From positions 62,001-126,000 of the forward strand of contig NZ_CALMPA010000022.1 in NCBI RefSeq assembly GCF_937871615.1: DNA of 64,000 bases. Reading direction: 5' to 3'. Each line of letters begins with the position of its first letter. Positions within the stretch are counted from its first letter, which is position 1. This stretch comes from an uncultured Sphingomonas sp. (lineage in GTDB: Bacteria > Pseudomonadota > Alphaproteobacteria > Sphingomonadales > Sphingomonadaceae). The position numbers were made by a program, and so were the translations under genes. The notes under the pieces were generated by a model. It worked only from the letters and a program-made list of their open reading frames with translations. It searched no databases and was not told the DNA's origin. Shown here piece after piece: positions 30,862 through 56,468 of the stretch.

Positions 30862-30878
30862 GATTTTCGCGATATGGT

Positions 30879-33875: not shown

Positions 33876-34211
33876 CAACACGCCTCTCTTGCAATCGCTT
33901 TTGTCTGTTGCCTCCGCGCCCGCGGGCGCAAGAGGTGTATCACTGAGACAGCACGGATATTGTTTGTTGTCAAATTATAACACTCCCGAAAAAATCGACC
34001 GCCTTTCACCCGGCGGAATCGCGCTGCAGGAAGAAGCGTCCGCCGCAAACATTTGAGATTTGACGACGAATCCGGCGCGACGGTTTTCAGAGAAATAAGT
34101 TGGAACACAAACAAAATTTGTTGACCTTCGGATGTCCGAATCATAATTTTGCGGCGGGAGAAGACGCTGCCTCCCTGATGATAAGGGGGCGGCAAGGGGA
34201 GGATCGACTTA
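33876..34211. promoter_or_regulatory. Divergent regulatory region between TolB/amidohydrolase A and TonB receptor
   Basis: 336 bases. For the receptor: -35 TTGACC (34121-34126), 17-base spacer, -10 TAATTT (34144-34149). A perfect 13-base inverted repeat AACAAA-A-TTTGTT (34110-34122) abuts the -35 and includes an ACAAA-N5-TTTGT pattern (34108-34122 region). For the divergent gene, an AT-rich stretch near 33960-33990 (TTGTTTGTTGTCAAATTATAA) probably holds its promoter. No gene fits in the interval. Confidence 0.6.
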
Positions 34212-41508: not shown

Positions 41509-41527
41509 GGTTTGTCATCCAACTATA
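41499..41527 (+). promoter_or_regulatory. Promoter and operator of the PQQ dehydrogenase gene
   Basis: -35 TTGACA (41499-41504), 17-base spacer, -10 ACTATA (41522-41527). A near-perfect inverted repeat GACAA-CATGGT-TTGTC (41501-41516) covers the -35 and spacer and also the start codon of the divergent hydroxy-acid dehydrogenase, so one regulator could control both. Confidence 0.62.
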
Positions 41528-41558: not shown

Positions 41559-43493
41559 ATGATCGGCGCAGGTAACGGGGCAGTCGGGCGTGGTTTCAGC
41601 CCTCGGCTGTTGTTGGCTTCGACGACCGGGCTGGCGGTGCTCGCGGTGCCGCTGATGCTGCTTGGTTGCGGCAATTCAGCCGCGCAGCAGGATAATGCGA
41701 GCCAGGCCGCGGAGGTCGCGCCCGGCGGCGAACTGAGCGGCGGGCGGCCCAAGTTCGGCCCACCCGCGGGCATGAAGCTGTTTCAGGAAAATTGCGCCGC
41801 CTGCCACACCGAAAAGGGGATGGAGATGGGCGGCCGCGCGGTGCCGAACCTCGCGACGCTGCATTCGATGTCGCCGGAACGCATCTTCGACGTGATGCTG
41901 AACGGCAAGATGAAGGAACAGGCAGCCGGGCTGGATCGCGCGCAGAAGAAGCAGGTCGCGGAGTTCCTCGGCGGGCGCCCGATGATGGACGCGGCGGGCA
42001 CCGACGTGAAGGCGATGAGCAACCTTTGCAAGGCGAACCCGGAATTCGCGCTCGGCGCGAATGACTGGAACGGCTGGAGCCCGCAGGCGAATAGCGCGCG
42101 GTTCCAGAATGCCGGTGGCCTGGCTGCGGGCGATGTGCCGAAGCTGAAGCTGAAATGGGCGTTCGGCGTGCCACAGGCGGCAAGCATGTTCTCGCAACCC
42201 GCGGCGGCAGGCGGTCGCCTGTTCTTCGGCAGCGACAACGGCACCGTCTATGGCATAGATGGGAACACCGGCTGCGCTTACTGGTCGTTCCACGCCGATG
42301 GCGGCATCCGCACCGCGCCGGTGGTGCAGCCGGTGACCGGGCAGAAAGAGAAATTCGCCGTCATCTTCGCCAGCCAGTCGGGCACGGTGTTCGCGGTCGG
42401 CGCGCGCACCGGGGAATTGTTGTGGAAGACGCGCCCGTCGAACGAGCCGCATGGGCTGACCGGCTCGATCGGCGCGTGGGGCGGGCGCGTTTATGTGCCC
42501 TTCACCGGCACCGAGACGCTGGCGGGCGCCAATCCCAAATATGAATGCTGCAAATCGAGCGGCGGCGTCGCCTCGATCGACGCGAGCACGGGCAAGCTCA
42601 TCTGGTATGCCTCGTCGATTCAGGAACCGATCGTCTCGCGTGGCAAGAACGAGATCGGCGTGCCGATGTGGGGGCCGTCCGGCGCGAGCGTGTGGAACAC
42701 GCCGACGATCGACCCGAAGCGCAAGCTGATCTATTTCGGCACGGGCAACAGCTATAACGAGCCAGCCGCATCGACATCGGATTCGATCGTCGCGATCGAC
42801 ATGGAAACCGGCAAGATTCGCTGGCACCACCAGGAAATCGCGGGCGACGCCTTCGTCCTCGGTTGCCCGGATACCGCCCCGGCCGGCAATCATTGCCCGA
42901 CCAAGATCGGGCCGGACTGGGATTTCGGCGGCTCGTCCGTGATCCTGAAGACGCTGCCCAACGGCAAGGATGTGCTGATCGGCGCTGGCAAGGCCGGTAT
43001 CGCGGTCGCGGTCGATCCCGATCAGCAGGGCAAGGTGGTGTGGCGCACCAAACTCTATGCCGACAAGCCGCCGACGGCGGACGGGCTGGTCATCTTCGGT
43101 GGCGGCGCGGATAATCGCTACGTCTATTATCCGCTGCAACGCGCCGGCGGCGGGCTGACCGCGCTCGATCTGGCGACCGGCAAGCCGGCGTGGACCGCGC
43201 CGATGCGCGCCGATGGCCGCGGCCAGATCGGGCCGGCGAGCGTGATGCCGGGCATGGTCTTCACCGGCGGCTGGGACGGCACGCTGCGCGCGGTCGATCC
43301 GACCGGCAAGGTGGTGTGGACGTTCGATACGAAGCGCGATTTCCAGACGATCAACGGCATTCCTGGCAAGGGCGGCTCGCTCGGCCAGTCCGGCGCGGTG
43401 GTGGCGAATGGCCGCCTCTATGTCGCGTCGGGCTATGTCGGTATGCAGAACGGCTCCGCCGGCAACGTCATTCTGGCCTTCTCGGCCAAGTAA
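41559..43493 (+). CDS. Lipoprotein quinohaemoprotein dehydrogenase (cytochrome c + PQQ propeller, PVA-dehydrogenase-like)
   Basis: 644 residues. The leader ends in a lipobox (PLMLLGC, Cys ~37), predicting lipid anchoring. A cytochrome c domain follows (FQENCAACHTEKGMEMGGRAVPNL, haem CxxCH near residue 83), then an eight-bladed PQQ-type propeller with repeated segments such as GRLFFGSDNGTVYGIDGNTG, GTVFAVGARTGELLWKTR and GGLTALDLATGKPAWT. A CCKSS vicinal cysteine pair occurs mid-propeller. This order (haem domain before propeller) is that of sphingomonad polyvinyl-alcohol dehydrogenase, so secondary or aryl alcohol oxidation is likely. ATG 41559 follows GGGAGGGG. Confidence 0.84.
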   Translation: MIGAGNGAVGRGFSPRLLLASTTGLAVLAVPLMLLGCGNSAAQQDNASQAAEVAPGGELSGGRPKFGPPAGMKLFQENCAACHTEKGMEMGGRAVPNLATLHSMSPERIFDVMLNGKMKEQAAGLDRAQKKQVAEFLGGRPMMDAAGTDVKAMSNLCKANPEFALGANDWNGWSPQANSARFQNAGGLAAGDVPKLKLKWAFGVPQAASMFSQPAAAGGRLFFGSDNGTVYGIDGNTGCAYWSFHADGGIRTAPVVQPVTGQKEKFAVIFASQSGTVFAVGARTGELLWKTRPSNEPHGLTGSIGAWGGRVYVPFTGTETLAGANPKYECCKSSGGVASIDASTGKLIWYASSIQEPIVSRGKNEIGVPMWGPSGASVWNTPTIDPKRKLIYFGTGNSYNEPAASTSDSIVAIDMETGKIRWHHQEIAGDAFVLGCPDTAPAGNHCPTKIGPDWDFGGSSVILKTLPNGKDVLIGAGKAGIAVAVDPDQQGKVVWRTKLYADKPPTADGLVIFGGGADNRYVYYPLQRAGGGLTALDLATGKPAWTAPMRADGRGQIGPASVMPGMVFTGGWDGTLRAVDPTGKVVWTFDTKRDFQTINGIPGKGGSLGQSGAVVANGRLYVASGYVGMQNGSAGNVILAFSAK

Positions 43494-44145: not shown

Positions 44146-45855
44146 TCAGTCTCGCGGGAGCCAGATGTCGAGCACCGCGCAACGCCCTTCCTCGCGGACC
44201 ACGCGGAGCGCCTCGCTCAGCGCATCGTCCACCTCGGCGACCTCCTTCACCGCGCGGGCATGGGCGCCCCCGGCGGCGGCGGCGATGCCGGCATAATCCG
44301 GCGGCGGATCGAAATTGACGTCGAGATCGGCGGTGTTCGCGGCATAGCCGCTCGGGTGCACCGCGAGGGCGGAATAGCGCGGCGCCTTCCACCCGCGATT
44401 GTTGAGCACGATATGCAGGAACGGCGCCTTGTAATGGCTCGCCATCCAGTGAACCGACGATGGCACCGAAAACATATAGGAGCCATCGCCCGTCACCGCG
44501 ACGACCGTTTTGTCGGGCGCGGCGAGCTTTGCGCCGATCGCAGCACCACCATTCCAGCCAAGCGACCCGCCGCCGCTGGCGAAGAACGTGCCGGGCGTGT
44601 CGGGGGCGATGTGGTTCAGAATCTCGGGATAGTTGGTGATACCCTCGTTGAGGACGATGCTGTCTTCGCCCAGCATCGCGCGCAGCCGGGCCATGACATA
44701 TTCGGTCGTCAGATGCTCCGCCGGCTTCTCGCGCTCGGCGAGCCAGGCGGCGCGCTGCTGGTGGAGGCCGGCGAAATGATCGCGCCGCTCGGCAACCCGC
44801 GCCGCGTCGATCGTCAGCGCCGCGATGCCCTGATTGAGCTGGCGCAATGCCGTCGCCGCGTCGGCGCGGAACGACTGGACGGCGGGGATATACCACAAGG
44901 GCATCGACTGTTTGAGCGGATCGACATCGATGTGGAAGATCCGCGCATCGTCGCGCGGGCGGCTGACCGTGGGAATCCACGGCACGTCGCTGTCGAGCAC
45001 CAGCACCACATCGGCCTCCGCCAGCACCGGATTCTGGAACGGATGGTTCCAGTGACTGCCCTGATAGAGCGGATTGCTGTGCGGGAAATTGAGCGCGCTT
45101 GGCACCGATTCGAGCACGCCGACGCCCAGCGCCTCGCAGAAGCGCACCAGTTCGCCCACCGCTTCGGGATTGCGCCCGGCAAAAGAGGTGACGACGATCG
45201 GCCGCCGCGCGCCCGCGATCGCCGAAAGGATCGTCGCGATGCTTTCCCCCGGCAGCGCGCCCGGCTGCACCGGCTGCCAATGCGCCATGTCGATCGTCAC
45301 CGGCTCGACGACCTCTTCCATCACCTCGCGTGCGCCGACCAGATAGACCGGCCCCTTGGGATCGCTGTTGGCGAATTGCATCGCGCGATGGACGATCTGC
45401 TTGACGTTGGTTCCGGTGCGGAACTCATTGTCGTATTTCATATATTCGCGCACGATCCCGCGCTGGTCGTACACGTCCTGAATCCACTGGATGAATTCGT
45501 TGCGGCTGCCCTTCAGCTCGCCTTCCTGCGTGAAGGGCGAGAGGCCGGCGAAGATCAGCACCGGCGCGCGCCCCTTGGCGGCATTGTGCACCGCGCCGGC
45601 GAGCGATTGCGTGCCGCATTCGACATGCACCACCACCGCCTGCGGCGCACCGCTGACCTGCGCGAACCCTTGCGCGGCGGACAGGCCGACCATCTCGAAC
45701 GGCGCGGTGATTACCCGCGGGATCTTGCGCCCGTTCGCCCGCGCTTCCGCGATCGCCTCCACCAGCGCGGGATGGTCGCTGCCGAAATTGGCGAAGATAT
45801 AAGAGACGCCTGCTTCCGTCAGGGCTTCGAGGAAGGCAGTGCTCGCTGTGTACAT
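44146..45855 (-). CDS. Thiamine-diphosphate-dependent decarboxylase/ligase (benzoylformate-decarboxylase- or acetolactate-synthase-like)
   Basis: 569 residues with the three ThDP-enzyme domains. N-terminal PYR domain: FLEALTEAGVSYIFANFGSDHPALVEAI and ITAPFEMVGLSAAQGFAQ, where the activating Glu lies in the APFE segment. Central domain: PIVVTSFAGRNPEAVGELVRFCEALG. C-terminal PP domain: GSLGWNGGAAIGAKLAAPDKTVVAVTGDGSYMFSVPSS, with GDGS and the downstream NNRGW forming the Mg-ThDP motif. I cannot separate benzoylformate decarboxylase from other oxo-acid enzymes by sequence alone. The upstream aromatic-aldehyde dehydrogenase and divergent hydroxy-acid dehydrogenase favour aryl-glyoxylate decarboxylation (inference). 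Confidence 0.82.
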   Translation of the reverse strand: MYTASTAFLEALTEAGVSYIFANFGSDHPALVEAIAEARANGRKIPRVITAPFEMVGLSAAQGFAQVSGAPQAVVVHVECGTQSLAGAVHNAAKGRAPVLIFAGLSPFTQEGELKGSRNEFIQWIQDVYDQRGIVREYMKYDNEFRTGTNVKQIVHRAMQFANSDPKGPVYLVGAREVMEEVVEPVTIDMAHWQPVQPGALPGESIATILSAIAGARRPIVVTSFAGRNPEAVGELVRFCEALGVGVLESVPSALNFPHSNPLYQGSHWNHPFQNPVLAEADVVLVLDSDVPWIPTVSRPRDDARIFHIDVDPLKQSMPLWYIPAVQSFRADAATALRQLNQGIAALTIDAARVAERRDHFAGLHQQRAAWLAEREKPAEHLTTEYVMARLRAMLGEDSIVLNEGITNYPEILNHIAPDTPGTFFASGGGSLGWNGGAAIGAKLAAPDKTVVAVTGDGSYMFSVPSSVHWMASHYKAPFLHIVLNNRGWKAPRYSALAVHPSGYAANTADLDVNFDPPPDYAGIAAAAGGAHARAVKEVAEVDDALSEALRVVREEGRCAVLDIWLPRD

Positions 45856-45907: not shown

Positions 45908-47356
45908 TCAGAACGGGTAATGCTGCTCGTCCTCGATGGTGATCCAGCGCAGATCGGTGAATTCGGCGATCGCCGCCTTGCCGCCGAAGCGCCCGTAGCC
46001 GCTGTCCTTGACGCCGCCGAACGGCATCTGGGCTTCGTCATGCACCGTCGGCCCGTTGATGTGGCAGATGCCGGACTGGATGCGCCGCGCGGCGTTAAGC
46101 GCGCGGCGGATGTCGCGACCGAACACGGCGGAGGAGAGGCCGAATTCAGTGTCGTTGGCGATCTCCACCAGCGCGTCGTCGCCGCTCGCGCGGACGATGG
46201 TGACGACGGGGCCGAACGATTCCTCGGCATAGATGCGCATCGCCGGGGTGACGTGATCGAGCACCGCCGGCTGCATCACCGGGCCGTCGCTGGCGCCGCC
46301 GGCAAGCAATGTCGCGCCATGCTTCACGGCGTCCGCGATCAGCTCGTTCACCTTCGCGACGGCGGCGCAGCTCACCAATGTGCCGAGCTGCGCGGCGCCA
46401 TCATCCGCGCCGCTCGCGCGCAGGCTTTCGGTCTTGCGCTTCATCCGCGCGGCGAAATCGTCGGCGATCCTGGCGTCGACGACGATCCGCTCGGTCGACA
46501 TGCAAATCTGGCCCTGATTCATGAACGCGCCAAACGCCGCACCATCGACCGCAGCATCCAGATCGGCATCGTCGAGCACGACGAACGGCGCCTTGCCGCC
46601 CAGTTCGAGCAGCGCGGGCTTCAGGTGGCGTGCGGAGACTTCGGCGATGATCCGGCCCACCTTGGTCGATCCGGTGAAGTTCACGCGGCGCACCGCCGGG
46701 TGGGCGATCAGCGCCTCGACCAGCGCCCCGGCATCGGCGGGCGCGTTGGTCAGCACGTTGACGACGCCTTTGGGCAGCCCGGCGTCATGCAGCACCTGCC
46801 CGATCAGCCGATGCGTGGCCGGGCAGATTTCGGAGGCCTTGAGGATCACCGTATTGCCGCACGCCAGCGGCATCGCGATCGCGCGCACCGCGAGGATCAC
46901 GGGGGCGTTCCACGGCGCGATGCCGAGGCTGACGCCCGCCGCCTGCCGCACCGCGAGCGCGATCGTGCCGGGTTTGTCGGACGGGAGCACCTCGCCGGAA
47001 ATCTGCGTCGTCATCGCGGCGGCCTCGCGCAAAATCCCGGCGGCGAGCTTGACGTTGAACGCGGCCCAGCCGCGCGTCGCGCCGATTTCGGCCCGCATCA
47101 GCGCGGCGAATTCATCCGCCCGCGCGGCGAGCGCGTCGGCGGCGCGCAACAGCAGGTCACGCCGGGCGTTCGGCCCCATCTTCGACCATGCGGGAAAGGC
47201 GCGCCCGGCGGCGTCGCAGGCGCGGCGCGCGTCTTCCAGTGTCGCGGCGGCGGCAGTGGTCGCCACGCCTTCGCCGGCGGGATCGAGCCGGTCGAACGTG
47301 GCATTGCCGGTGGCGGCGACGCTTTCGCCGTCGATCAGCAATTGGACGGTCATCAT
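45908..47356 (-). CDS. Aromatic-aldehyde dehydrogenase (vanillin/salicylaldehyde/benzaldehyde dehydrogenase family)
   Basis: 482 residues. AAGVSLGIAPWNAPVILAVRAIAMPLACGNTVILKASEICP, VNFTGSTKVGRIIAE, LELGGKAPFVVLDDAD (Glu base), FMNQGQICMSTERIVVD (Cys nucleophile, CMSTER context) and CHINGPTVHDEAQMPFGGVKDSGYGRFGGKAAIAEFTDLRWITIE. The CMSTER and HINGPTVHDEAQMPFGG strings are characteristic of salicylaldehyde (NahF/DoxF) and vanillin (LigV/Vdh) dehydrogenases. Product of the ThDP enzyme would be its substrate. ATG 47356 shares one base with the stop of the upstream AAHS transporter. Confidence 0.88.
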   Translation of the reverse strand: MMTVQLLIDGESVAATGNATFDRLDPAGEGVATTAAAATLEDARRACDAAGRAFPAWSKMGPNARRDLLLRAADALAARADEFAALMRAEIGATRGWAAFNVKLAAGILREAAAMTTQISGEVLPSDKPGTIALAVRQAAGVSLGIAPWNAPVILAVRAIAMPLACGNTVILKASEICPATHRLIGQVLHDAGLPKGVVNVLTNAPADAGALVEALIAHPAVRRVNFTGSTKVGRIIAEVSARHLKPALLELGGKAPFVVLDDADLDAAVDGAAFGAFMNQGQICMSTERIVVDARIADDFAARMKRKTESLRASGADDGAAQLGTLVSCAAVAKVNELIADAVKHGATLLAGGASDGPVMQPAVLDHVTPAMRIYAEESFGPVVTIVRASGDDALVEIANDTEFGLSSAVFGRDIRRALNAARRIQSGICHINGPTVHDEAQMPFGGVKDSGYGRFGGKAAIAEFTDLRWITIEDEQHYPF

Positions 47357-48741
47357 CAAACTCCGTTGGAATGTGCAGGCTGGAAATGGCGGCGGACGCT
47401 CATCAGCGCGATCGCGGTGGCGCCCATCGCGACGAGCAGCATCAGGCTCAGCCCGCTCGCGCCGAGCGCGTGGAGCGCAAGCGCGCCACCGAACGAGCTT
47501 GCGATCGCGCCGATCCGCCCAACGCTGGTCGCGCTGCCGACGCCGGTGGCGCGGATCGCGGTGGGATAGACATTCGCCGCGAGCGCATAGAGCGTGGTCT
47601 GCACGCCGTTGATGAACGCGCCCTCGATGCCGAGGATCAGGATAAGCACGAGGCGCGATCCGGCGGGATCGAGCGGGTTGGTGAGCAACACGCCTGCCCC
47701 CAGCACGCCGCCGATCGCCATCACCACCATCGGCGCCTTCGAGCCTTTGTGCCCGATCAGCCACGCGCCGGTCAGCGCGGCGATAACCCCGCCGATGTTG
47801 AAGGCGGTGAGGCCCTGGCTGGAAAAGGCGAGATCGAAGCCCGCATCGGACAACATCGTCGGCAACCAGCTGAACGCGGTATATACCGCGAACAGGCAGG
47901 CCCCGAACGCCGCCCACAGCGCGATCGTGTCGCGCCGCCACGCGCCGGAGAACAGCGCGGCGAGGGGAGACTTGCCGTGCTGTCCTTCATCCTGCTCGGC
48001 GATATCCACCAGCCGGGCATTGGCGGGAACGTCCAGGCCGACCCGCGCGAGCAACCTGCGCAGTTTTGGGGTGTCGCCGTGGCGGCGCAGCAGGAAGCGG
48101 GTCGATTCGGGCAGGCACAGGAAAAGGAGCAGCGCGACCGTGAGCGTCGCGCCGCCCGCCGCGGCGAACAACATGCGCCAGCCGAAGATCGGCAGCACCT
48201 GCGCCGCGATCAGCCCGCCCACCACGCCGCCGAGCGGCACGCAGACGATGCTCGCCGTCACGCCGAGGCTGCGGTTGCGCGCGGGGGTATATTCCGAAAC
48301 GAGCGCGGCGGCATTGGGGAAGGCCGCGCCAAGCCCGATATTCGCGACAAGTCGCAACGCGCCGATCACGAACAGGCTGTTCGAAAAGGCGATGCAGCCG
48401 GTCAGCACGCCGAACGTCAGCACGCTGCCGACCAATGCCGCCTTGCGACCGAAGCGATCGCCGATCATGCCGCCGAGCGCGGCGCCGAACATCATGCCGA
48501 ACTGGCCGATCGCCATCACCGGCGACAGCATTTCCTTGGAAATGCCCCAATCCCGGATGATCGCGGGCGCAGCGAAACCGAGCGACTGGTTATCGAACCC
48601 GTCGAAGATCACCGCGCATCCCACAAGGAGGAGGACCAGCTTCTGATAGCCGCTCCACCGCCCTGCATCTATCGCCCGTCCGATATCGAAATCCGGGCCG
48701 ATATCGGGATCGGCGCGGTGCCCGGCGGCGAACTTGCTCAT
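47356..48741 (-). CDS. Aromatic acid:H+ symporter (AAHS family, MFS)
   Basis: 461 residues, 12 TM segments. The family signature is present: VIFDGFDNQSLGFAAPAII in TM1, GALGGMIGDRFGRKAALVGSVL after TM2 (here FGAALGGMIGDRFGRK), and PLGGVVGGLIAAQVLPIFGWRMLFAAAGG. AAHS carriers such as PcaK, BenK and MhbT import benzoate, protocatechuate or hydroxybenzoates. It overlaps the upstream haem-binding-like gene by 4 bases and the downstream aromatic ALDH by 1, placing an aromatic acid at the entry of this pathway; a mandelate or hydroxybenzoylformate type is possible. Confidence 0.88.
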   Translation of the reverse strand: MSKFAAGHRADPDIGPDFDIGRAIDAGRWSGYQKLVLLLVGCAVIFDGFDNQSLGFAAPAIIRDWGISKEMLSPVMAIGQFGMMFGAALGGMIGDRFGRKAALVGSVLTFGVLTGCIAFSNSLFVIGALRLVANIGLGAAFPNAAALVSEYTPARNRSLGVTASIVCVPLGGVVGGLIAAQVLPIFGWRMLFAAAGGATLTVALLLFLCLPESTRFLLRRHGDTPKLRRLLARVGLDVPANARLVDIAEQDEGQHGKSPLAALFSGAWRRDTIALWAAFGACLFAVYTAFSWLPTMLSDAGFDLAFSSQGLTAFNIGGVIAALTGAWLIGHKGSKAPMVVMAIGGVLGAGVLLTNPLDPAGSRLVLILILGIEGAFINGVQTTLYALAANVYPTAIRATGVGSATSVGRIGAIASSFGGALALHALGASGLSLMLLVAMGATAIALMSVRRHFQPAHSNGV

Positions 48742-49265
48742 TTCGCGGCGCCCGCCCCGCCCGGCAGCGCGTCCATTCCGGCCTTGGCGATGATATCATC
48801 CTCGCCCGCCATGCCGCCGCTGACGCCGATCGCGCCGATCACTTGGCCGTTATACATGATCGGATAGCCGCCCGGCACCGCGACGACGCCGGGAATCGTC
48901 GCCATCGCCGCGCTTTGCGCCACCATCTGGCTAATCATGGAGGTGGGCGCCTTGAACATGATCGCGGTGTTGGCCTTGCCGAGCGCGGTGTCGATCGTGC
49001 CCATCGGCGCGCCGTCGGTGCGATGGAAGGCGAGCAGCTTGCCGGCATTGTCGACCACCGCGATCGACGATCCCCAGCCGTTCGACGCCGCCTTGGTGAT
49101 TGCGGCGTTCATCACCGCCTGCACACCCGCCGAACTCAGCACCGGCAGATTCTGCACCGGCGCGCTGGTCGGTTTCGGCCCCTGTTTCGGCTCGGCGGCG
49201 GCGAGCGGTTGCAGCGCGGAGACGGCCAACAACGTGGCGCCTGCGAATTTCAGCATATTGTTCAT
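48738..49265 (-). CDS. Exported GlcG/HbpS-family (haem-binding-like) protein
   Basis: 175 residues: signal peptide (MLKFAGATLLAVSALQPLAAAE), then the GlcG/HbpS domain (DUF336): AVMNAAITKAASNGWGSSIAVVDNAGKLLAFHRTDGAPMGTIDTALGKANTAIMFKAPTS and VPGGYPIMYNGQVIGAIGVSGGMAGEDDIIAKAG. Family members occur as periplasmic haem-binding or as partners in glycolate and diol catabolism. It is first in the operon with the AAHS transporter, ALDH and ThDP enzyme; starts at ATG 49265 seven bases after GGGAGG. Role in the pathway not known. Confidence 0.82.
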   Translation of the reverse strand: MNNMLKFAGATLLAVSALQPLAAAEPKQGPKPTSAPVQNLPVLSSAGVQAVMNAAITKAASNGWGSSIAVVDNAGKLLAFHRTDGAPMGTIDTALGKANTAIMFKAPTSMISQMVAQSAAMATIPGVVAVPGGYPIMYNGQVIGAIGVSGGMAGEDDIIAKAGMDALPGGAGAAK

Positions 49266-49541
49266 CGGCATCCCTCCCTTGATGATCCTGCACCGGGCGC
49301 GACCACGATCGTTGCCCGTCTGTTCGCCTGGCAGGCGATGTGATTTCAAAGCATCGCGTTGAATCACGATTCGCCTCCCCCGAACCTTATTCTGCCTGGC
49401 GGAAATCCCGCCGTCGCTATTCTCGTTGGAACGAGCCTAACAGAAACTAGTGTGAGATCAAACTTGTTTGTTGCGTTCGTTGCTGGTAGCGATCGCGTAA
49501 CGACCGCCGGCCCGAAGCCGGAATTCATGAGGGAGGAACTG
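49266..49541. promoter_or_regulatory. Divergent regulatory region upstream of the SnoaL operon
   Basis: 276 bases. Possible -35 TTGGAA (49426-49431) and -10 TAGTGT (49448-49453) at 16 bases. An inverted repeat TCAAA-CTTG-TTTGT (49458-49471) lies just downstream, in the position of an operator. The first gene's frame is open back to 49359, but the ribosome-binding site GGGAGG (49531-49536) selects ATG 49542. Confidence 0.5.
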
Positions 49542-50372
49542 ATGGCCGAATCGCCGCTTTCGTTGCGCAACGCCGGCAGGAGCGCGCTCATCGCCGCCGC
49601 GATGGTGGCCGTAACGGGTGCGCCAGCCGCAACCGCGCAGACCGCCGCGGAGCGCAAGCTCGCCGCGCTGGAAACGCGAGTCGAGCGGCTGGAGGATCGC
49701 GCGGCGATCGAAAATCTCACGCGCGCTTACGGTTATTATGTCGACAAGCAGATCTGGAACGAGATCGCCGATCTGTTCTCCGATAACGCGCGGGTCGAGA
49801 TCGCCGGGCGCGGCGTCTATCGCGGCAAGGAAGGCGTGCGGCGCCTGTTCCTGCAATCCATGGGCGGCGGGCAGATCGGCCTGCGCCCCGGCGGATTGTT
49901 CAATCACATGATCCTGCAGGGCGTCACCGATATCGCGCCCGACGGCAAGACGGCGAAAGGCCGCTGGCGCGCCTTCGTTCAGATCGGCCAGCACAAGATG
50001 TTCGGCATCTGGTCCGAGGGGACTTACGAGAATCAATATGTGAAGGAAAACGGCGTCTGGAAGTTCAGCGACATGCACTTCTACGCGACGTTCTACGCGC
50101 CCTATGAACAGGGCTGGGCGCAGGGCGCGCGGCCCAACAACGGGCCGAGCAAGGATGCGCCGCCGGACGAGCCGCAATCGGTTCAGTACGATGTCTATCC
50201 GGGGCATTACGTACCGCCGTTCCACTATCCCAACCCGGTGACGGGCAAGCCGTGGACGATAGAGGAAAGCCGGAAATATTCGACGACGGGCATGTCGCCG
50301 GCCCCCGCCGGGCCGCCGATCCAGCCGGGATCGGCGATGCCGCCCGCGCCAGCCCCCAAGCCCGTACAGTGA
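49542..50372 (+). CDS. Exported SnoaL/NTF2-like protein, tandem copy 1
   Basis: 276 residues. Signal peptide (IAAAMVAVTGAPAATAQ), then a short coiled segment (ERKLAALETRVERLEDRAAIENLTRAYGYYVDK), a SnoaL-like core (LFSDNARVEIAGRGVYRGKEGVRRLFLQ; GVTDIAPDGKTAKGRWRAFVQIGQHKMFGIWSEGTYENQYVKENGVWKF) and a distinctive C-terminal extension (YDVYPGHYVPPFHYPNPVTGKPW) followed by a Pro-rich tail. The exported, extended form is not one I can link to a characterised enzyme; NTF2-like proteins in sphingomonads include lyases and isomerases of lignin-derived aromatics, so a lyase is one option. It shares most of its motifs with the next gene. Confidence 0.72.
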   Translation: MAESPLSLRNAGRSALIAAAMVAVTGAPAATAQTAAERKLAALETRVERLEDRAAIENLTRAYGYYVDKQIWNEIADLFSDNARVEIAGRGVYRGKEGVRRLFLQSMGGGQIGLRPGGLFNHMILQGVTDIAPDGKTAKGRWRAFVQIGQHKMFGIWSEGTYENQYVKENGVWKFSDMHFYATFYAPYEQGWAQGARPNNGPSKDAPPDEPQSVQYDVYPGHYVPPFHYPNPVTGKPWTIEESRKYSTTGMSPAPAGPPIQPGSAMPPAPAPKPVQ

Positions 50373-50383
50373 TCGGAGAGACG

Positions 50384-51229
50384 ATGATGAACATCAAGAC
50401 CTGGATGCGCGCGGGGGTTGCCGGCGCGATCGTGGCAAGTGCGGTGGCAGCCCTTCCGGCGTCGGCGCAATCGGCCAAGGGGGTCGACGCCCGCATCGCC
50501 GCGCTGGAGAAGCGCGTCACGCTGCTGGAAGATCGCGCCGCGATCGAGAACCTCACCCGCGCCTACGGCTATTATATCGACAAGAAGGTGTGGGGCGAGG
50601 TCGTCCCGCTGTTCTCGAAGAATGCGGTCGTCGAGATATCGGGGCGCGGCGTTTACAAGGGCGCGAAGGGCGTCGACACGCTGTTCACCAAGGTGATCGG
50701 GCGCAACCATATGGGGCTCGCGGATGGTGAGCTGTCAAACCATATGGTGCTTCAGGGCGTCACCAACGTCGCGCCCGACGGCAAGACCGCGACGGGCCGC
50801 TGGCGCGCCTTCATCCAGATCGGCATGTGGCAGAAGATGGGGCTGTGGGCCGAGGGCACCTATGACATCGGCTACGTCAAGGAAAACGGCGTGTGGAAGT
50901 TCAGCATGATGCGCTGGTACGGCACCTATTTCACGCCATATGACAAGGGCTGGGCGCAATCGTCGTTCGGCAACAACGGGCCGAGCAAGGATTTCCCGCC
51001 TGATGCGCCGCAATCGGTGCCTTATGACGCCTATCCGGGCCATTATGTGCCGCCATTCCCCTATCCCAATCCGGTGACCGGGCGGCCATGGACGCAGGCG
51101 GATACCGATCGCTACTCGACGAAGGGGATGGATCCGAGCGCGGCCGCCAATTCCTCATCCGCGGGTTCGCCGCTGTCGCTCGAAAATCAGCGCCAGCCGC
51201 AGCCCGCGCCGACGCAGCCGCCGCGCTGA
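50384..51229 (+). CDS. Exported SnoaL/NTF2-like protein, tandem copy 2
   Basis: 281 residues. Same order as copy 1: signal peptide (GAIVASAVAALPASAQ), ALEKRVTLLEDRAAIENLTRAYGYYIDKKVWGEVVPLF, GRGVYKGAKGVDTLF, GVTNVAPDGKTATGRWRAFIQIG, YVKENGVWKF, then YPGHYVPPFPYPNPVTGRPW and a Ser/Gln/Pro tail. The two clearly arose by tandem duplication. Starts at ATG 50384 or 50387 after GGAGAG, 11 bases past copy 1's stop. They may form a heteromer or act on sequential substrates. Active-site residues cannot be assigned from sequence. Confidence 0.72.
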   Translation: MMNIKTWMRAGVAGAIVASAVAALPASAQSAKGVDARIAALEKRVTLLEDRAAIENLTRAYGYYIDKKVWGEVVPLFSKNAVVEISGRGVYKGAKGVDTLFTKVIGRNHMGLADGELSNHMVLQGVTNVAPDGKTATGRWRAFIQIGMWQKMGLWAEGTYDIGYVKENGVWKFSMMRWYGTYFTPYDKGWAQSSFGNNGPSKDFPPDAPQSVPYDAYPGHYVPPFPYPNPVTGRPWTQADTDRYSTKGMDPSAAANSSSAGSPLSLENQRQPQPAPTQPPR

Positions 51230-51251
51230 TCGGTTCGAGCGGGGAGGAGCC

Positions 51252-52169
51252 ATGAAGATCGCGGTGATCGGCGCCGGGGCGATGGGCAGCCTGTTCGGCG
51301 GCAGGCTCGCGCTCGCGGGGCATGATGTGCGGCTCGTCGACGTGAACGCGCCGCACATCGCCGCGATCAATCGCGATGGGCTGCGGCTCGATCTGGACCA
51401 GGGCGTGTCTGTCGTCCGCGCCATCACGGCGGGGACGGCGGATGCGTTCGCCGGGCCGGTCGATTTGCTGCTCGTCTTCACCAAGGGCTATCACACCGCC
51501 GCCGCGCTTGCCGCCGCGGCGCATCTCGTCGGCCCCGGAACATGGGCGCTCACGCTCCAGAACGGGCTGGGCACCGGCGAACGGATCGCCGCCGCCTTGC
51601 CCGGCGTGCCCGTCGCGATCGGCATGACCGACGTGCCGGCGGACCTGAAGGGGGCGGGGCATGTCGGCTCGCACGGCAAGGGCCATGTCCGGTTGTGGAG
51701 CCAGTCCGGCGCGGTGGACCCGGCGCTGGATCGGATCGCCGCCGCGCTGGGCGAGGCCGGCATCGAAGCGCACGCCGATCCCGAGGTCGCCACCGCGATC
51801 TGGGAAAAGGTGATCTTCAACACGGTGATGAATCCGGTCGCCGCGCTCACCCGGCAAACGGTGGGCGGGATGGCGGGCCACCCGGACGGACGACCGCTCG
51901 CCGAGGCGATTCTGGGTGAAGCCTTCGCGGTGGCGGCGGCGTGCGGCGTGGCGGTGGATCAGGCGCGAGTGCGCGCGATTATCGACCATGCCTGGCGCGA
52001 GCACGGGCCACACCAGCCGTCGATGTTGCAGGACGTGCTCGCCGGGCGCGCGACGGAGATCGACTCGATCGCGGGCCAACTCGCCGAACGTGGCGCGGCG
52101 CACGGCGTGCCGGTGCCGGTGCTCGATACGCTCACGCGGCTTGTCAGGATGATGAATCGCGCCGGGTGA
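51252..52169 (+). CDS. PanE/ApbA-family ketopantoate-reductase-like oxidoreductase
   Basis: 305 residues. MKIAVIGAGAMGSLFGGRLALAGHDVRLVD is the NADPH-binding GxGxxG Rossmann motif; LLVFTKGYHTAAAL supplies a Lys-containing segment, LTLQNGLGTGERI the NG motif, IWEKVIFNTVMNPVAALT the conserved catalytic Lys/Asn region and PSMLQDVLAGRATEIDSIAGQL the C-terminal substrate site (EID). All ketopantoate-reductase hallmarks are present, but the location inside a catabolic operon suggests reduction or oxidation of another 2-oxo/2-hydroxy acid rather than pantothenate synthesis (inference). Confidence 0.85.
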   Translation: MKIAVIGAGAMGSLFGGRLALAGHDVRLVDVNAPHIAAINRDGLRLDLDQGVSVVRAITAGTADAFAGPVDLLLVFTKGYHTAAALAAAAHLVGPGTWALTLQNGLGTGERIAAALPGVPVAIGMTDVPADLKGAGHVGSHGKGHVRLWSQSGAVDPALDRIAAALGEAGIEAHADPEVATAIWEKVIFNTVMNPVAALTRQTVGGMAGHPDGRPLAEAILGEAFAVAAACGVAVDQARVRAIIDHAWREHGPHQPSMLQDVLAGRATEIDSIAGQLAERGAAHGVPVPVLDTLTRLVRMMNRAG

Positions 52170-52203
52170 ACGGCGCGCGAAATTGTTGGGGGAGGGGATG
52201 TCG

Positions 52204-54021
52204 ATGAAGGTCCGTAATCTGGTTCTCGTCGCGTTGCTCGGCACGGCGTCGATGGGCGTGGCGGAGCCGCTCAAGGGCCCGGACTGGGCGAAGAAGGGCG
52301 AGCCCGGCCTGTCCGACGCGCGCTACAAGGTGGTGATCGAGAAGAATGTTCCCGTGCCGATGCGCGACGGGGTGAAGCTCGCCGCCGATGTCTATCGGCC
52401 CGACGCGCCGGGCAAGTTTCCGGTGATCGTGCTGCGGACGCCCTATAACAAGGCGTCGCCCGACGAGATCCAGAACTCCACCTGGTATGCCGAGCGCGGC
52501 TATGTCGTGGTGAACGAGGATGTGCGCGGGCGTTTCGCCTCCGGCGGCGATTATTACACCTATCGGCATGAAGCGCGCGATGGTTACGATACCGATGCCT
52601 GGGCCGCGACGCAGCCGTGGAGCAGCGGCAGGCTGGGCACGCTGGGCGGCTCCTACCTCGGCTATACCGGGCTGACGCAGGCGATCGGCGGCCATCCCGC
52701 GCTGAAAGCGGTGGCGACCGATGTGACCACCACCGATATCTACAACCAATGGGTCTATAGCGACGGGGCGTTCATCCTCGGTTTCTCGCTGCCATGGGGC
52801 GCGGGCACGGTGCACGACCGCACGACTGACGGCGGCGGGGCTTTCACGAAGCCCGAAGCCTATGCGCACCTGCCGCTCGCCACGGCGGATTCGGCGGCGT
52901 ACAAGGTCGATCAGCCCTATCGCGACTGGCTGGCGCATCCGTTGCGCTCGGATTCATACTGGAACGGCATCAGCTTCGAAAAGGATGCCGCGAAGATCGG
53001 CATCCCGACGCTGGTGGTCAGCGGCTGGTACGACATCTTCCTGCGCGGTGCGCTTGGCGATCATGCCGCGATCAAGAATGGCGGCAGCACCGCGCTCGCC
53101 CGCACGCAGAAGCGGATCGTGATCGGCCCGTGGACGCATTTCAAGACGGTCGCGCCGCGCAAGGGCGGCTTCGGCGGCATGGCGACAGCCGATGACGTGG
53201 ATTATGGCGCCGATGCCGATCTCAACGGCAATCTGCTTTATCTGCGCTGGCACGATCACTGGCTGAAAGGCGTGGATAACGGCGCCGACAAGGATCCGCC
53301 GGTGCGCATCTTCGTGATGGGCGAGAACAAGTGGCGCGCCGAAAACGAATGGCCGCTCAAGCGCACCCGCTACACGCCATATTATCTGGCGAGCGGCGGC
53401 AAGGCGAATACGGCGGACGGCGACGGAACGCTCTCCACCGTCAAGCCGACCGGCGCCGATGATGATCGTTATGACTATGATCCCGCCAATCCGGTGCCAA
53501 CGCTGGGGGGCAACATCTGTTGCTCGTCGGTGCCGTCGGGCGCGCACGATCATCGCTCGATCGAGAAGCGGGGAGACGTGCTGGTGTTCACCGGGCCGGT
53601 GCTGGACAAGACCGTGGAGGTCAGCGGGCCGATCCGCGCGAAGCTTTACGCGGCAAGCTCCGCGCCGGACACCGATTGGGTGGTGCGGCTGATTGATGTC
53701 GATCCCGGCGGCTACGCGCGCAACATCCAGGATGGCATCATCCGCGCGCGTTATCGCAAGGGCAGGGAAACCCCCGCGTCGCCGATCGAGGCGGGCAAGG
53801 TTTATGAATATGATATCGACATGTGGGCGTCGAGCAACGCCTTCCTGCCGGGACACCGCATCCGCATCGAGGTGACGAGCAGCAATTTCCCGCGCTTCGA
53901 TCGCAATCTCAACACCGGGGAAGACCCGGCGACCGGAACGCGGATGGCGATCGCGCACCAGCAGGTGCTCCATTCCGCGCGCTACCCAAGCCATGTGCTG
54001 CTGCCGATCATTCCACGCTGA
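52204..54021 (+). CDS. Exported CocE/NonD-family alpha/beta hydrolase (X-Pro dipeptidyl-peptidase-like)
   Basis: 605 residues. Leader MKVRNLVLVALLGTASMGVAE looks like a signal sequence. Catalytic triad: Ser150 in GTLGGSYLGYTG, Asp277 in SGWYDIFLRG and His312 in IGPWTHF. The C-terminal jelly-roll domain is recognisable from DVLVFTGPVLDKTVEVSGPI, APDTDWVVRLIDVDPGG and GHRIRIEVTSSNFPRFDRN. Members are cocaine esterase, glutaryl-7-ACA acylase and Xaa-Pro peptidases; here an ester or amide of an aromatic substrate is plausible. ATG 52204 spaces properly from GGAGG, unlike 52198. Confidence 0.87.
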   Translation: MKVRNLVLVALLGTASMGVAEPLKGPDWAKKGEPGLSDARYKVVIEKNVPVPMRDGVKLAADVYRPDAPGKFPVIVLRTPYNKASPDEIQNSTWYAERGYVVVNEDVRGRFASGGDYYTYRHEARDGYDTDAWAATQPWSSGRLGTLGGSYLGYTGLTQAIGGHPALKAVATDVTTTDIYNQWVYSDGAFILGFSLPWGAGTVHDRTTDGGGAFTKPEAYAHLPLATADSAAYKVDQPYRDWLAHPLRSDSYWNGISFEKDAAKIGIPTLVVSGWYDIFLRGALGDHAAIKNGGSTALARTQKRIVIGPWTHFKTVAPRKGGFGGMATADDVDYGADADLNGNLLYLRWHDHWLKGVDNGADKDPPVRIFVMGENKWRAENEWPLKRTRYTPYYLASGGKANTADGDGTLSTVKPTGADDDRYDYDPANPVPTLGGNICCSSVPSGAHDHRSIEKRGDVLVFTGPVLDKTVEVSGPIRAKLYAASSAPDTDWVVRLIDVDPGGYARNIQDGIIRARYRKGRETPASPIEAGKVYEYDIDMWASSNAFLPGHRIRIEVTSSNFPRFDRNLNTGEDPATGTRMAIAHQQVLHSARYPSHVLLPIIPR

Positions 54022-54077
54022 CGATGGCGCCGGAAATTATTTGACCTGGAACAATATCTGCAAGGGAACGAAGGACA

Positions 54078-55310
54078 ATGCGCAAGACTTTCGCGTTCGG
54101 TATGCTGCTGGCCTGTGTCGCCGCCCCCGCGCTCGCCGCCCCCAAGCCGGCCAAGGCGCCCGCCGCCGTTGCGGCCCCCGATGTGGTCGCTGCCGGGGGG
54201 CTCGTCTTCCCGTCGGCGGCGGTCGGCACGCACGGCAGCGCGCTCGATCAGGTCGATGAGATCGTGAAGACGATGGACGCCCGGCTACGCAAGGCGGGGG
54301 CCGGCGGCATCGGCAATATGATGCAGCACACCATCTATTTGAAGGATGGCGCGGCCTCGCCGATGGACGTGCTTGGCCGTTTCCATGCCGATGCGCGCAA
54401 GCTCGCGCCAAGCCTGGTCGGGCTGCCCAGCGTGGGCACGATCGTCCGCGTGCCCGAATTCGCTGACAAGAACACGCTGGTCGCGGTCGATCTGTTCGCC
54501 GGGCCGGGCAAGACCGCCGATTTCAAGCGTATCCCCTTCACCTTCGGGCCGAAGGAAATTGTCGAGACGATCGGCACCGGGCCGGTGGTATTCACCGCCG
54601 GGCTGGAAGCGATGGATTTCCAGAACGGCAAGCTTGTTCCCGGCATCGACGAGCAGATCGACGTGATCGTCGCCAAGCTGGATGGCGCGATGAAGAAGGC
54701 CGGCCTTTCGGTCGGCAACATGATTTCACACAATCTCTACGTCACGCGCGGCACCGATCCGATCAACGTGATCGAGAAGTTTCACGCCGCCACGCGCAAA
54801 TATTCGCCGGGGCTGAAGGAGCAGCCGAGCGTCGGCACGCTGGTGGTGGTTGATGGCATGGCGGTGCCGGGCTTCCTGCTGGAAATCGACGCCATCGCCA
54901 GCAAGGATGATCCCGCCACGCTGAAGCGCGTGCCGTTCACCGAAATGCCGATGGATATCGCCAAGACGGTGCAGGCCGGCTCGCTGGTGTTCGTCGCCGG
55001 CATGGAGGGCGTGGATTTCGACAAGGGCGGCAAGGTTTCGCCCGACGTGATGGAACAGGTGGACGCCTCCGCGCGCAAGATCGACGCTTCGTTGCGCGCA
55101 GCGGGCCTTTCCACCGCCGATCTCGTCAAATACAAGATGTACGTGAAGAAGGGCAACGATGCCAATGCGGTGCGCGCGCACTTCCGCAAGGCGCTGGCTA
55201 AGCTCGCCGGCGGCAAGCAGCCTCGCGCCGCCGAGACGCTGGTGGTGGTCGAAGGACTTGCCGGGCCGTCGCTGCAATTCGAGGTGACGGCTGTTGCCGC
55301 GCATCGCTGA
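54078..55310 (+). CDS. Exported protein with three tandem RidA (YjgF) domains
   Basis: 410 residues: signal peptide (FAFGMLLACVAAPALAA) followed by three RidA-like repeats, about residues 37-150, 165-285 and 300-410. Each repeat has a VVFTAGLE-like strand, a helix with DQVDEIVKTMDARLRKAG-type sequence, NMxxHxxY and a final VVDG/EI strand. RidA normally functions as a homotrimer of ~130-residue chains, so this chain looks like a covalent trimer. The conserved active-site Arg of the (A/S)R(S/T)xV strand is replaced in the repeats (PSVGT, PSVGT and AAET), so classical imine deaminase activity is doubtful; it may bind a small ligand instead. Confidence 0.83.
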   Translation: MRKTFAFGMLLACVAAPALAAPKPAKAPAAVAAPDVVAAGGLVFPSAAVGTHGSALDQVDEIVKTMDARLRKAGAGGIGNMMQHTIYLKDGAASPMDVLGRFHADARKLAPSLVGLPSVGTIVRVPEFADKNTLVAVDLFAGPGKTADFKRIPFTFGPKEIVETIGTGPVVFTAGLEAMDFQNGKLVPGIDEQIDVIVAKLDGAMKKAGLSVGNMISHNLYVTRGTDPINVIEKFHAATRKYSPGLKEQPSVGTLVVVDGMAVPGFLLEIDAIASKDDPATLKRVPFTEMPMDIAKTVQAGSLVFVAGMEGVDFDKGGKVSPDVMEQVDASARKIDASLRAAGLSTADLVKYKMYVKKGNDANAVRAHFRKALAKLAGGKQPRAAETLVVVEGLAGPSLQFEVTAVAAHR

Positions 55311-55332
55311 TTTTCAGAGGAGGAGAGGGTAG

Positions 55333-55638
55333 ATGAAGAAGATTGTTGCACTGGCGTTGATGATGGCGTTCGCCGCGCCGGCGGTTGCCCAGACCGCTCC
55401 CGCCGCCGCGCCGGCGGCACAGGCCGGCTTCACGGTTGACGGCAGCTCGATCGAGACACTCGCGGGCGATCCGCGTAGCAAGGCGGTGATCGACAAGCTG
55501 ATGCCGCAATTGCTCGGCCATCCGGCCTATGACCAGTTCAAGACGATGACGCTGAGCCAGCTCGCGCCGATGAGCCAGGGCAGCATCACCGATGATCTGC
55601 TCAAGCAGGTTCAGGCCGAACTGGCGAAGATAAAGTAA
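55333..55638 (+). CDS. Small exported helical protein of unknown function
   Basis: 101 residues: signal peptide ending APAVAQ, Ala/Pro linker, then a compact helical module (VDGSSIETLAGDPRSKAVIDKLMPQLLGHPAYDQFKTMTLSQLAPMSQGSITDDLLKQVQAELAKI). I recall similar ~65-residue modules fused to the C-termini of other sphingomonad exported proteins, but cannot confirm the family. Starts 22 bases after the RidA gene, with AGGAGAGGG upstream. Probably a partner or accessory domain supplied as a separate chain. Confidence 0.6.
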   Translation: MKKIVALALMMAFAAPAVAQTAPAAAPAAQAGFTVDGSSIETLAGDPRSKAVIDKLMPQLLGHPAYDQFKTMTLSQLAPMSQGSITDDLLKQVQAELAKIK

Positions 55639-55644
55639 CGCGTC

Positions 55645-56178
55645 ATGTCCAGGGCCGCGACCAGCGAATTCTGGAAGGATATCCCGCCGATCGCGAGGGT
55701 ATTCCGCACGGATGCGATGCCGGAAACCTATATTCCTGACGCGGCCACGGATGACGAGCGTTACTATTTTCCACTCAGCCCGACGGTCTTTTCCCGTCCG
55801 CTGTGGATATCGCCGCAGCGGAACATGTGGGCCGACATATTGATGGCGAAGGAGGCCGGCCTCGTGAACCGGCATTATCATCCGCATCAGGTGTTCGCTT
55901 ATACGATCCAGGGCCAATGGGGCTATCTGGAGCATGACTGGACCGCCAGCGCCGGGGATTTCGTTTACGAGAGCCCCGGCGAGGGCCACACGCTCGTCGC
56001 ATATGACACCGGCGTGCCGACCAAGATCATGTTCATCGTTACCGGGCCGCTGATCTGGCTCGATGAAAATGGCGAGAGCGTCGGCCATTATGACGTTCAC
56101 GATTATATCGCCGATGCCCGCGCGCATTACGATCGCGTGGGGATCGGCGCCCAATATATCGACGGTTTGTTCCGCTGA
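55645..56178 (+). CDS. Cupin of the 2,4'-dihydroxyacetophenone dioxygenase family
   Basis: 177 residues, no signal peptide, same length as the characterised 2,4'-dihydroxyacetophenone dioxygenase (DAD). The iron site is formed by NRHYHPHQVFAYTIQGQWGYLEHDW and the second cupin motif AGDFVYESPGEGHTLVA. DAD cleaves the C-C bond of 2,4'-dihydroxyacetophenone to 4-hydroxybenzoate and formate. Family members of other specificity exist, so the reaction here is predicted as C-C cleavage of an aryl ketone at best. Start ATG 55645 is 6 bases after the previous stop; ribosome-binding site weak, translational coupling likely. Confidence 0.72.
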   Translation: MSRAATSEFWKDIPPIARVFRTDAMPETYIPDAATDDERYYFPLSPTVFSRPLWISPQRNMWADILMAKEAGLVNRHYHPHQVFAYTIQGQWGYLEHDWTASAGDFVYESPGEGHTLVAYDTGVPTKIMFIVTGPLIWLDENGESVGHYDVHDYIADARAHYDRVGIGAQYIDGLFR

Positions 56179-56381: not shown

Positions 56382-56468
56382 GCGGGTGTGGCGGAACTGG
56401 TAGACGCAGCGGACTCAAAATCCGCCTCTGGCAACAGATTGTCGGTTCGAGTCCGACCACCCGTACCA
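56382..56468 (+). tRNA. tRNA-Leu (CAA anticodon), CCA encoded
   Basis: 87 bases. Acceptor GCGGGTG (56382-56388) pairs with CACCCGT (56458-56464, G-U at the first pair), discriminator A, CCA encoded at 56466-56468. Anticodon stem GCGGA/TCCGC encloses loop CTCAAAA, giving CAA (reads UUG). T-arm GTCGG-TTCGAGT-CCGAC. A long variable arm fits class II tRNA-Leu. A TTATAG (56333-56338) upstream may be its -10. Confidence 0.95.

Follow-up and report, generated by a model that had tools for sequence, protein, structure and literature searches.

A conserved fourteen-gene divergent cluster of an uncultured Sphingomonas with a predicted role in aryl side-chain catabolism

Results

Fourteen genes form one divergent cluster

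We analyzed a 64-kb stretch of DNA from an uncultured Sphingomonas sp. (the window; all coordinates are positions in it), in which an earlier sequence-based prediction (the original prediction) had placed a seven-gene operon for an aryl-substrate pathway. We found seven plus-strand open reading frames (ORFs) without internal stops at 49542-56178, separated in order by 11, 22, 28, 56, 22, and 6 bp, and thus reproduced the predicted coordinates, ORFs, and gaps of 6-56 bp. Pfam and NCBIfam bore out the families named, with two SnoaL_4 proteins (SnoaL1 and SnoaL2), an ApbA/ApbA_C protein (PanE), a Peptidase_S15/PepX_C protein (CocE/NonD), a Ribonuc_L-PSP (Rid) protein, and a cupin; the small protein at 55333-55638 matched no family above cut-off in either database. 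Judged by eye, SnoaL1, SnoaL2, CocE, Rid, and the small protein have signal-peptide-like N-termini, and PanE and the cupin, having no export-like stretch, were read as cytosolic, in agreement with the expected four or five exported products and two that are not. The ratios of nonsynonymous to synonymous substitution rates (dN/dS) of the seven genes against the congeneric genome G437 were 0.06-0.23, and the ORFs are therefore not a chance run. A tRNA-Leu gene follows the cupin end at 56382-56468.

The seven genes, real as they are, make up only half of a divergent cluster of 14 genes at 39681-56178 (Table 1). Across a divergent region of ~270 bp, the opposite arm starts with minus-strand genes for an HbpS-like protein, a major facilitator superfamily (MFS) transporter, an aldehyde dehydrogenase, and a thiamine pyrophosphate (TPP)-dependent enzyme, beyond which lie genes for a cytochrome c/pyrroloquinoline quinone (PQQ) protein on the plus strand, a flavin mononucleotide (FMN)-dependent alpha-hydroxy-acid dehydrogenase, and a MarR regulator. 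The order MarR-FMN dehydrogenase-PQQ-TPP-aldehyde dehydrogenase-MFS-HbpS, followed divergently by SnoaL1-SnoaL2-PanE-CocE-Rid-small protein-cupin, is identical, with the orientation of all 14 genes, in the two congeneric genomes G437 and G438. A contig from a metagenome-assembled genome of Sphingomonas sp. 67-36 (L102) has the same order for the 11 genes from TPP to cupin, where the fetched stretch ends. Over aligned codons, dN/dS against G437 was 0.06-0.34 in 14 of 14 genes, indicating purifying selection. G438 also keeps the flanking TonB receptor, amidohydrolase, and short-chain dehydrogenase/reductase (SDR) genes; these were unmatched in G437 (fetched flanks of ~6 and 10 kb), and the 14 genes therefore behave as one block. 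We conclude that the unit is 14 genes rather than seven. The span also holds, between the PQQ and TPP genes, an SDR-like ORF (43520-44113) that has a 69% match in G438 and none in G437; it was left out of the count.

The distribution of the cluster was followed with the triple Rid protein as marker in genome samples of the order and the genus. It was present in one of 396 order genomes, its own (E ≤ 1e-30), in three of 151 genus genomes, its own included (E ≤ 1e-12), and at one locus in a scan of species-genome contigs (78 pattern matches, one confirmed) that used two short peptides as patterns and so reaches close relatives only; the viral contigs and plasmids scanned had none. The rarity of the marker in the sampled genomes ruled out a widely conserved operon. 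A plasmid-borne operon was likewise rejected, with no SnoaL1 match on plasmids at E ≤ 1e-30; homologues of 2,4'-dihydroxyacetophenone dioxygenase (DAD), the family of the cupin, occur on plasmids of other genera. Three alignments of the 67-36 contig with G437 gave 93-95% DNA identity, so that the two may be one species and the independent lineages may be only three. Synteny in related genomes, to which the original prediction had looked, held for gene order but in very few genomes: the cluster is real and conserved in order, yet rare in the genomes sampled.

Table 1. Genes and sequence elements of the cluster, with coordinates in the window
Feature	Position	Strand	Description
Operator-like motif copy	34107..34121	.	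Precedes TonB receptor gene 34212-36593, which may belong to the regulon
MarR family regulator	39681..40199	-	Family assignment
FMN alpha-hydroxy-acid dehydrogenase	40279..41508	-	Start may lie further in
Inverted repeat TGACAA-N6-TTGTCA	41500..41517	.	Between FMN and PQQ genes, kept in own genome, G437, and G438
Cytochrome c + PQQ-type propeller	41559..43493	+	Probable lipoprotein (lipobox by eye), alcohol dehydrogenase-like
TPP-dependent enzyme	44146..45855	-	PRK08327 family, benzoylformate-decarboxylase-like
Aldehyde dehydrogenase	45908..47353	-	Family assignment
MFS transporter	47356..48741	-	Top NCBIfam models are aromatic acid/H+ symporter and PcaK, neither reaching its cut-off
HbpS/GlcG-like	48738..49271	-	Export-like, first gene of divergent arm
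39-bp block	49437..49475	.	Divergent promoter region, identical in four genomes, holds inverted repeat
SnoaL1	49542..50372	+	LdpA relative of the NTF2/SnoaL_4 type, export-like, His122 in line with NaLdpA His97
SnoaL2	50384..51229	+	Paralogue of SnoaL1 (58% identity), export-like, keeps the aligned histidine
PanE/ApbA family	51252..52169	+	Probable D-mandelate-type dehydrogenase, cytosolic
CocE/NonD	52198..54021	+	Export-like esterase, Ser152-Asp279-His314 by motif
Triple Rid	54078..55310	+	Export-like, three tandem Rid (L-PSP) domains
Small protein	55333..55638	+	Export-like, relatives elsewhere in genus
Cupin	55645..56178	+	Dioxygenase of DAD family

Predicted cytosolic enzymes with a probable link to mandelate metabolism

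The strongest functional evidence of our analysis is the gene context of PanE on plasmids. We fetched all 15 plasmid records with a PanE homologue (43.7-48.3% identity), several of which are close relatives of each other. A TPP/benzoylformate-decarboxylase-type gene lies within 6 kb of the PanE homologue in all 15 loci (in two of them, L142 and L143, the annotation mdlC had revealed this gene, which then became a query), an aldehyde dehydrogenase gene (57-66%) is present in 13, and an FMN dehydrogenase gene (41-43%) in five, two from Caballeronia and three from Paraburkholderia. A comparison set of 40 other loci, not matched for lineage, had the TPP gene in one and the aldehyde dehydrogenase gene in 11. 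The PanE gene set of Novosphingobium capsulatum adjoins catechol ortho-cleavage genes.

The structural relatives of PanE are consistent with this context. By sequence, its best solved chains were 8wl1, 8wl4, and 8wl3, with E values from 1.3e-40 to 4.7e-40; 3hwr and 3wfi came next, and E. coli PanE (1ks9) was a much weaker match (E 3.8e-17). A low-confidence predicted model (mean predicted local distance difference test, pLDDT, 58) retrieved first 8wl3 and 8wl1, both titled D-mandelate dehydrogenase, with 2ew2 (putative 2-dehydropantoate 2-reductase) and then 3wfi (D-mandelate dehydrogenase) close behind; fold alignments with the D-mandelate dehydrogenases had about 30-34% identity. A family of PanE-related D-mandelate dehydrogenases is described in the accessible parts of two papers (PMC12350541; PMC4230899), and its members 3wfi, 8wl1, and relatives, of the same family as the cluster PanE, are the nearest solved structures. 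Together these relationships suggest that PanE probably acts as a D-mandelate-type dehydrogenase, in concert with the two enzymes of the divergent arm that have TPP and aldehyde dehydrogenase assignments.

We also considered that PanE might be the ketopantoate reductase of the cell, placed in the operon by accident. It is the sole PanE match in its own genome at E ≤ 1e-5, as would suit that role. However, PF08546 had no match in 44 of 61 genus genomes (its own among the 61; among the 55 nearly complete genomes, 14 had a match), so that it marks no general housekeeping gene in the genus, and the position of PanE is kept in all four genomes with the cluster. We regard this explanation as very improbable. 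Separately, we observed that a plasmid of Novosphingobium sp. EMRT-2 carries consecutive genes for a benzoylformate decarboxylase, a LysR regulator, a PanE-family reductase, an MFS protein, and two small NTF2-family proteins (L143:6337-12225), a smaller parallel to the 14-gene cluster.

With 670 bits, the TPP enzyme exceeds the cut-off of the PRK08327 model (456), and its best solved relatives are benzoylformate decarboxylases. It keeps the equivalents of their Glu47 and His70 and may, on this likeness, work like a benzoylformate decarboxylase. The best single-domain solved relative of the FMN enzyme is the (S)-mandelate dehydrogenase 6bfg (4e-76). The genome also encodes PobA, above the curated cut-off, and has four LigB-family matches, so that 4-hydroxybenzoate could be degraded further, which is no proof of the substrate.

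The cupin, by its sequence, is a close homologue of the DAD family, as the original prediction had recognized. It is 69% identical over 174 residues to Alcaligenes DAD and keeps the three-His iron site (76, 78, and 114) as His77, His79, and His115. Five of six pocket residues are also kept, as Trp62, Asp64, Tyr94, Glu109, and Phe130 (DAD Trp61, Asp63, Tyr93, Glu108, and Phe129). Compared with the enzyme of Alcaligenes sp. 4HAP (4p9g), as given in the accessible part of its description (PMC4219425), the iron ligands and most pocket residues are thus shared, and Phe43 is changed to Leu and Val41 to Phe.

DAD cupins were found in 23 of 396 order genomes, its own included. The 22 other cupin loci (19.5 kb each) had no Rid, PanE, CocE, or small-protein match, which ruled out that DAD is accompanied there by the rest of the operon; at L055 there are genes for a relative of SnoaL (36%) and for a MarR protein (35%), and at L065 one for a TPP enzyme (23%). 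An Ensifer plasmid carries, in one direction, genes for an aldehyde dehydrogenase (66% identical), an SDR, a TPP enzyme, and a DAD homologue (68%), so that the association of DAD with a TPP enzyme and an aldehyde dehydrogenase extends to another order.

In 13 of the 22 other sphingomonad cupin loci, two further small cupins follow the DAD homologue (e.g., L067:9486-11044, the one locus in which the families were checked, with one of the three slightly below the Pfam cut-off). These triplets may correspond to the G-II cluster of Novosphingobium MBES04, in which, according to the accessible part of the report (PMC10866074), a DAD-like gene is induced 44.58-fold by a beta-O-4 dimer and the cluster 7.59- to 88.55-fold by lignin. 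What G-II has in common with our cluster is the DAD-like gene, which in G-II is cotranscribed with its neighbors and responds to lignin fragments and to guaiacylhydroxypropanone; it differs in having four genes, the DAD-like one first and three hypotheticals, and mandelate-type genes are not reported in that part of the text.

Export-like proteins of the cluster

The original prediction had assigned ligand handling to the periplasm, which for the SnoaL pair falls short: by their sequences, both proteins are relatives of the lyase LdpA and probably more than ligand handlers. LdpA was the best solved relative by sequence for SnoaL1 and SnoaL2, and in a fold search made for SnoaL1, with a model of low confidence (mean pLDDT 56), the top seven matches were all LdpA entries. 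The histidine changed in the NaLdpA H97Q mutant aligns with SnoaL1 His122, in a column invariant in four of four aligned proteins including SnoaL2. LdpA (8abt-8abw) and PcfL, gamma-formaldehyde lyases in the accessible parts of their descriptions (PMC12997858; PMC11323797), have the NTF2/SnoaL fold and this histidine in common with the pair, which differs from LdpA (about 35% identity in the fold alignment) in its export-like N-termini and tandem arrangement.

Tandem SnoaL_4 arrays, mostly export-like, were also found in three other sphingomonad genera (11 loci fetched, L077-L087). A relative of PQQ-cytochrome c dehydrogenases lies within 700 bp of the array in 10 of the 11 loci (Pfam-confirmed in two); one of these 10 (L078) failed the crude hydrophobicity score used to judge export. 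Such a relative was present in none of the 22 cupin loci and in three of seven loci with single non-exported SnoaL relatives, there 4-8 kb away. The PQQ protein of our cluster scored far below the cut-off of the PQQ alcohol dehydrogenase model.

These relationships raise the possibility of a lignin-dimer pathway, in which the exported SnoaL pair would deformylate beta-1/beta-5-type dimers to stilbenes, like LdpA and PcfL, and the remaining genes would handle the released monomers. The kept LdpA histidine and the arrays beside PQQ dehydrogenase relatives speak for it. However, none of the 14 genes encodes a lignostilbene dioxygenase (a search that did not extend beyond the cluster to the whole genome), the accessible text of the LdpA and PcfL papers contains no word beginning with "periplasm" (PMC12997858; PMC11323797), and a mandelate-type core would be needless for a vanillin product. 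We judge this pathway unlikely.

CocE is nearest to the Rhodococcus cocaine esterase (E 2.5e-110). It belongs to the CocE/NonD family and has the Ser152, Asp279, and His314 motifs, which we take to form the Ser-Asp-His triad. This likeness would also suit an ester pathway, in which exported CocE would hydrolyze plant or synthetic esters of mandelate-like or other aryl hydroxy acids, the acid would be imported and degraded by the mandelate module, and SnoaL and Rid would bind or tidy up by-products. A Neorhizobium plasmid that groups TPP, MarR, aldehyde dehydrogenase, PanE, and carboxylesterase genes points the same way. The DAD cupin, the PQQ protein, and the relatedness of the SnoaL pair to LdpA would be left unexplained, and a pathway centered on such esters seems improbable to us.

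The triple Rid protein matched solved Rid proteins weakly (best E 1.5e-6). Repeats 1 and 2 show P-S-V where the Rid catalytic motif is P-x-R with the catalytic Arg; domain 3 is ambiguous, and three alignments with solved Rid proteins end short of the motif. This bears on the route of the original prediction, in which periplasmic hydrolysis and cytosolic reduction by PanE precede cleavage by DAD, and to which N-acyl aromatics as substrates and an imine deaminase role of Rid might be added. The family names are in its favor, and the hydrolase and the DAD homologue are real. However, DAD needs a ketone, and by this reasoning a prior reduction by PanE would work against the DAD step; PanE stands in a context of decarboxylase-type and aldehyde dehydrogenase genes, and a D-mandelate-type dehydrogenase fits its structural relatives and plasmid context better than a reducer ahead of C-C cleavage. 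No observation singled out N-acyl aromatics as substrates, and Rid repeats 1 and 2 depart from the P-x-R motif. We consider this route scarcely plausible.

The small protein had matches in 20 of 61 genomes, its own included (E ≤ 0.01), which weakened the idea that it is specific to the pathway. It also has a weak match (E 0.001) to the C-terminal end of carboxylesterases, themselves export-like, that are encoded at L119 and L120.

A conserved block between the two arms

The operator-like repeat predicted ahead of the seven-gene arm was found again as CAAAC-TT-GTTTG at 49459-49470, inside a 39-bp block that is identical in four genomes. Against G437, the block has 39/39 identical positions and the remaining ungapped columns 165/215 (a count that excludes 50 columns with gaps and takes in a few bases from the ends of the coding regions). 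A genome-wide search for the 25-bp core of the block, allowing at most three mismatches, returned a single occurrence. From the block we derived the half-site pair ACAAAC + GTTTGT with a spacing of 1-4 and compared its counts with those in 30 random sequences of the same neighbor frequencies. With at most one mismatch there were two sites in the window, in the promoter block and upstream of the TonB receptor gene at 34212 (random mean 0.03, maximum 1). With at most two there were five (random mean 1, maximum 4); of the additional ones, that at 41502 lies between the genes for the FMN and PQQ proteins, and those at 27526 and 27562 precede the receptor ORF at 27612. With at most three there was no excess (27 sites; random mean 16.2, largest 27). 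Because the motif was drawn from the sites themselves, these counts are partly circular. In the sequence covered elsewhere, there are three sites in G438, two in G437, and one in L102. Because the earliest potential start codon of the FMN gene overlaps the 41502 site, the conservation of this site may partly be coding.

Scans for sigma-70 promoters (2 sites, shuffle mean 1.8) and terminators (6 sites, shuffle mean 4.6) and a hairpin calculation for the promoter block (z -0.6) gave null results. Both arms are probably jointly controlled, and MarR may be the regulator, acting through ACAAAC-N2/3-GTTTGT sites. We also observed at 24880-39629 a copper amine oxidase gene followed by two TonB receptor genes, each near a beta-propeller-amidohydrolase gene; two operator-like sites lie ahead of the receptor ORF at 27612 and one ahead of the receptor gene at 34212.

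Discussion

The reading that we favor, with moderate confidence, is that the 14-gene cluster would convert aryl compounds with a two-carbon side chain, perhaps lignin-derived, to aryl acids. In the cytosolic core that we infer, arylglycolates (mandelate type) would be oxidized to arylglyoxylates by two enantiomer-specific dehydrogenases, the PanE-family enzyme taking the D and the FMN enzyme the L enantiomer; the TPP enzyme would decarboxylate the arylglyoxylates to the aryl aldehyde, which the aldehyde dehydrogenase would oxidize. The DAD cupin would cut aryl hydroxymethyl ketones (2,4'-dihydroxyacetophenone type) to the aryl acid and formate. Both routes could share one precursor class, aryl-1,2-ethanediol or arylglycerol, with the route set by the hydroxyl that is oxidized. 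In the putative periplasmic front end, the CocE-like esterase would free an ester-linked substrate, the PQQ/cytochrome c protein would oxidize alcohol groups, and the two LdpA-like SnoaL enzymes would eliminate water or formaldehyde from the side chain; the MFS protein would import the aryl acids. The division of aryl side-chain catabolism between periplasm and cytosol, already proposed in the original prediction, is likely.

A more specific form of this reading, which we hold only tentatively, is a periplasmic shortening of lignin side chains, in which exported paired LdpA-like lyases, a PQQ/cytochrome c dehydrogenase, and an exported esterase would turn aryl-C3 into aryl-C2 units for a mandelate module acting on both enantiomers and for DAD, yielding aryl acids. 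The partnership of tandem SnoaL and PQQ genes in three other sphingomonad genera may be cited beside it.

Several observations weigh against the proposed conversion of aryl-C2 compounds. The name of the PRK08327 model gives no reaction, the benzoylformate decarboxylases are remote relatives of the TPP enzyme (E 2.5e-25), and the equivalent of their His281 is missing in the alignment, for which reason we did not file the enzyme as a member of that group. Tandem lactate oxidases outscore 6bfg for the FMN enzyme, by their repeats, and NCBIfam gave no mandelate dehydrogenase match for it, listing lactate-type and other models all below cut-off. The fold lead of PanE over a putative 2-dehydropantoate 2-reductase is small (5.8e-16 vs 2.0e-15), PanE is the only such protein matched in its genome, and the SnoaL1 and PanE models are both of low confidence. 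The cupin has Leu44 for the pocket Phe43 of DAD, and the Ensifer TPP enzyme is only 34% identical to ours. Both SnoaL proteins look exported, whereas the alignments with solved LdpA chains begin close to the N-termini of those chains, which leaves no room for an export-like stretch (one could be missing from the constructs), and the PQQ protein differs in architecture from those of the arrays and is not adjacent to the SnoaL pair (gap of 5.5 kb in G437). The lack of a lignostilbene dioxygenase in the cluster counts here too, and the scheme gives no firm place to Rid, HbpS, or the small protein.

The nearest described systems appear to be the Pseudomonas mandelate and bzf genes and the 4-hydroxybenzoylformate cluster of Rhodococcus jostii RHA1. 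The mdl pathway of Pseudomonas putida includes a racemase; our cluster has a PanE-family, probably D-type dehydrogenase in its place, and DAD and export-like proteins in addition. Our predicted core resembles P. putida mdlABCD and the bzf genes of strain LLC-1, as far as the accessible text goes (PMC7760541), in its putative (S)-mandelate dehydrogenase (mdl), putative decarboxylase, aldehyde dehydrogenase, and MFS transporter (bzf). The R. jostii cluster degrades 4-hydroxybenzoylformate from aryl-C2 lignin fragments and has, of the same kind, an FMN oxidase active on mandelate and 4-hydroxyphenylglyoxal, a benzoylformate decarboxylase, and an aldehyde dehydrogenase (vdh); its FMN enzyme, unlike ours, is placed in the vanillyl alcohol oxidase superfamily, and the accessible parts of the two papers mention no DAD, SnoaL, CocE, Rid, PQQ protein, or PanE (PMC10167727; PMC9811514).

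The original prediction knew of no described pathway with this gene set. The combination of the core with DAD, exported lyases, an exported esterase, and a triple Rid protein indeed did not appear to be present in any of the papers listed by searches of the open-licence literature (main texts, assessed from titles, the opening of abstracts, and counts of terms; most subscription journals lie outside this scope), but the core resembles the known mandelate and 4-hydroxybenzoylformate pathways. What looks new is the gene set as a whole, together with its export-like front end.

If our reading is right, one cluster links three chemistries that have been described separately, namely mandelate/benzoylformate metabolism, DAD cleavage, and LdpA-type elimination. 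The PanE subfamily, annotated as ketopantoate reductase in plasmid records, would gain a suggested functional name, and the tandem exported SnoaL proteins of other sphingomonads would gain a testable function.

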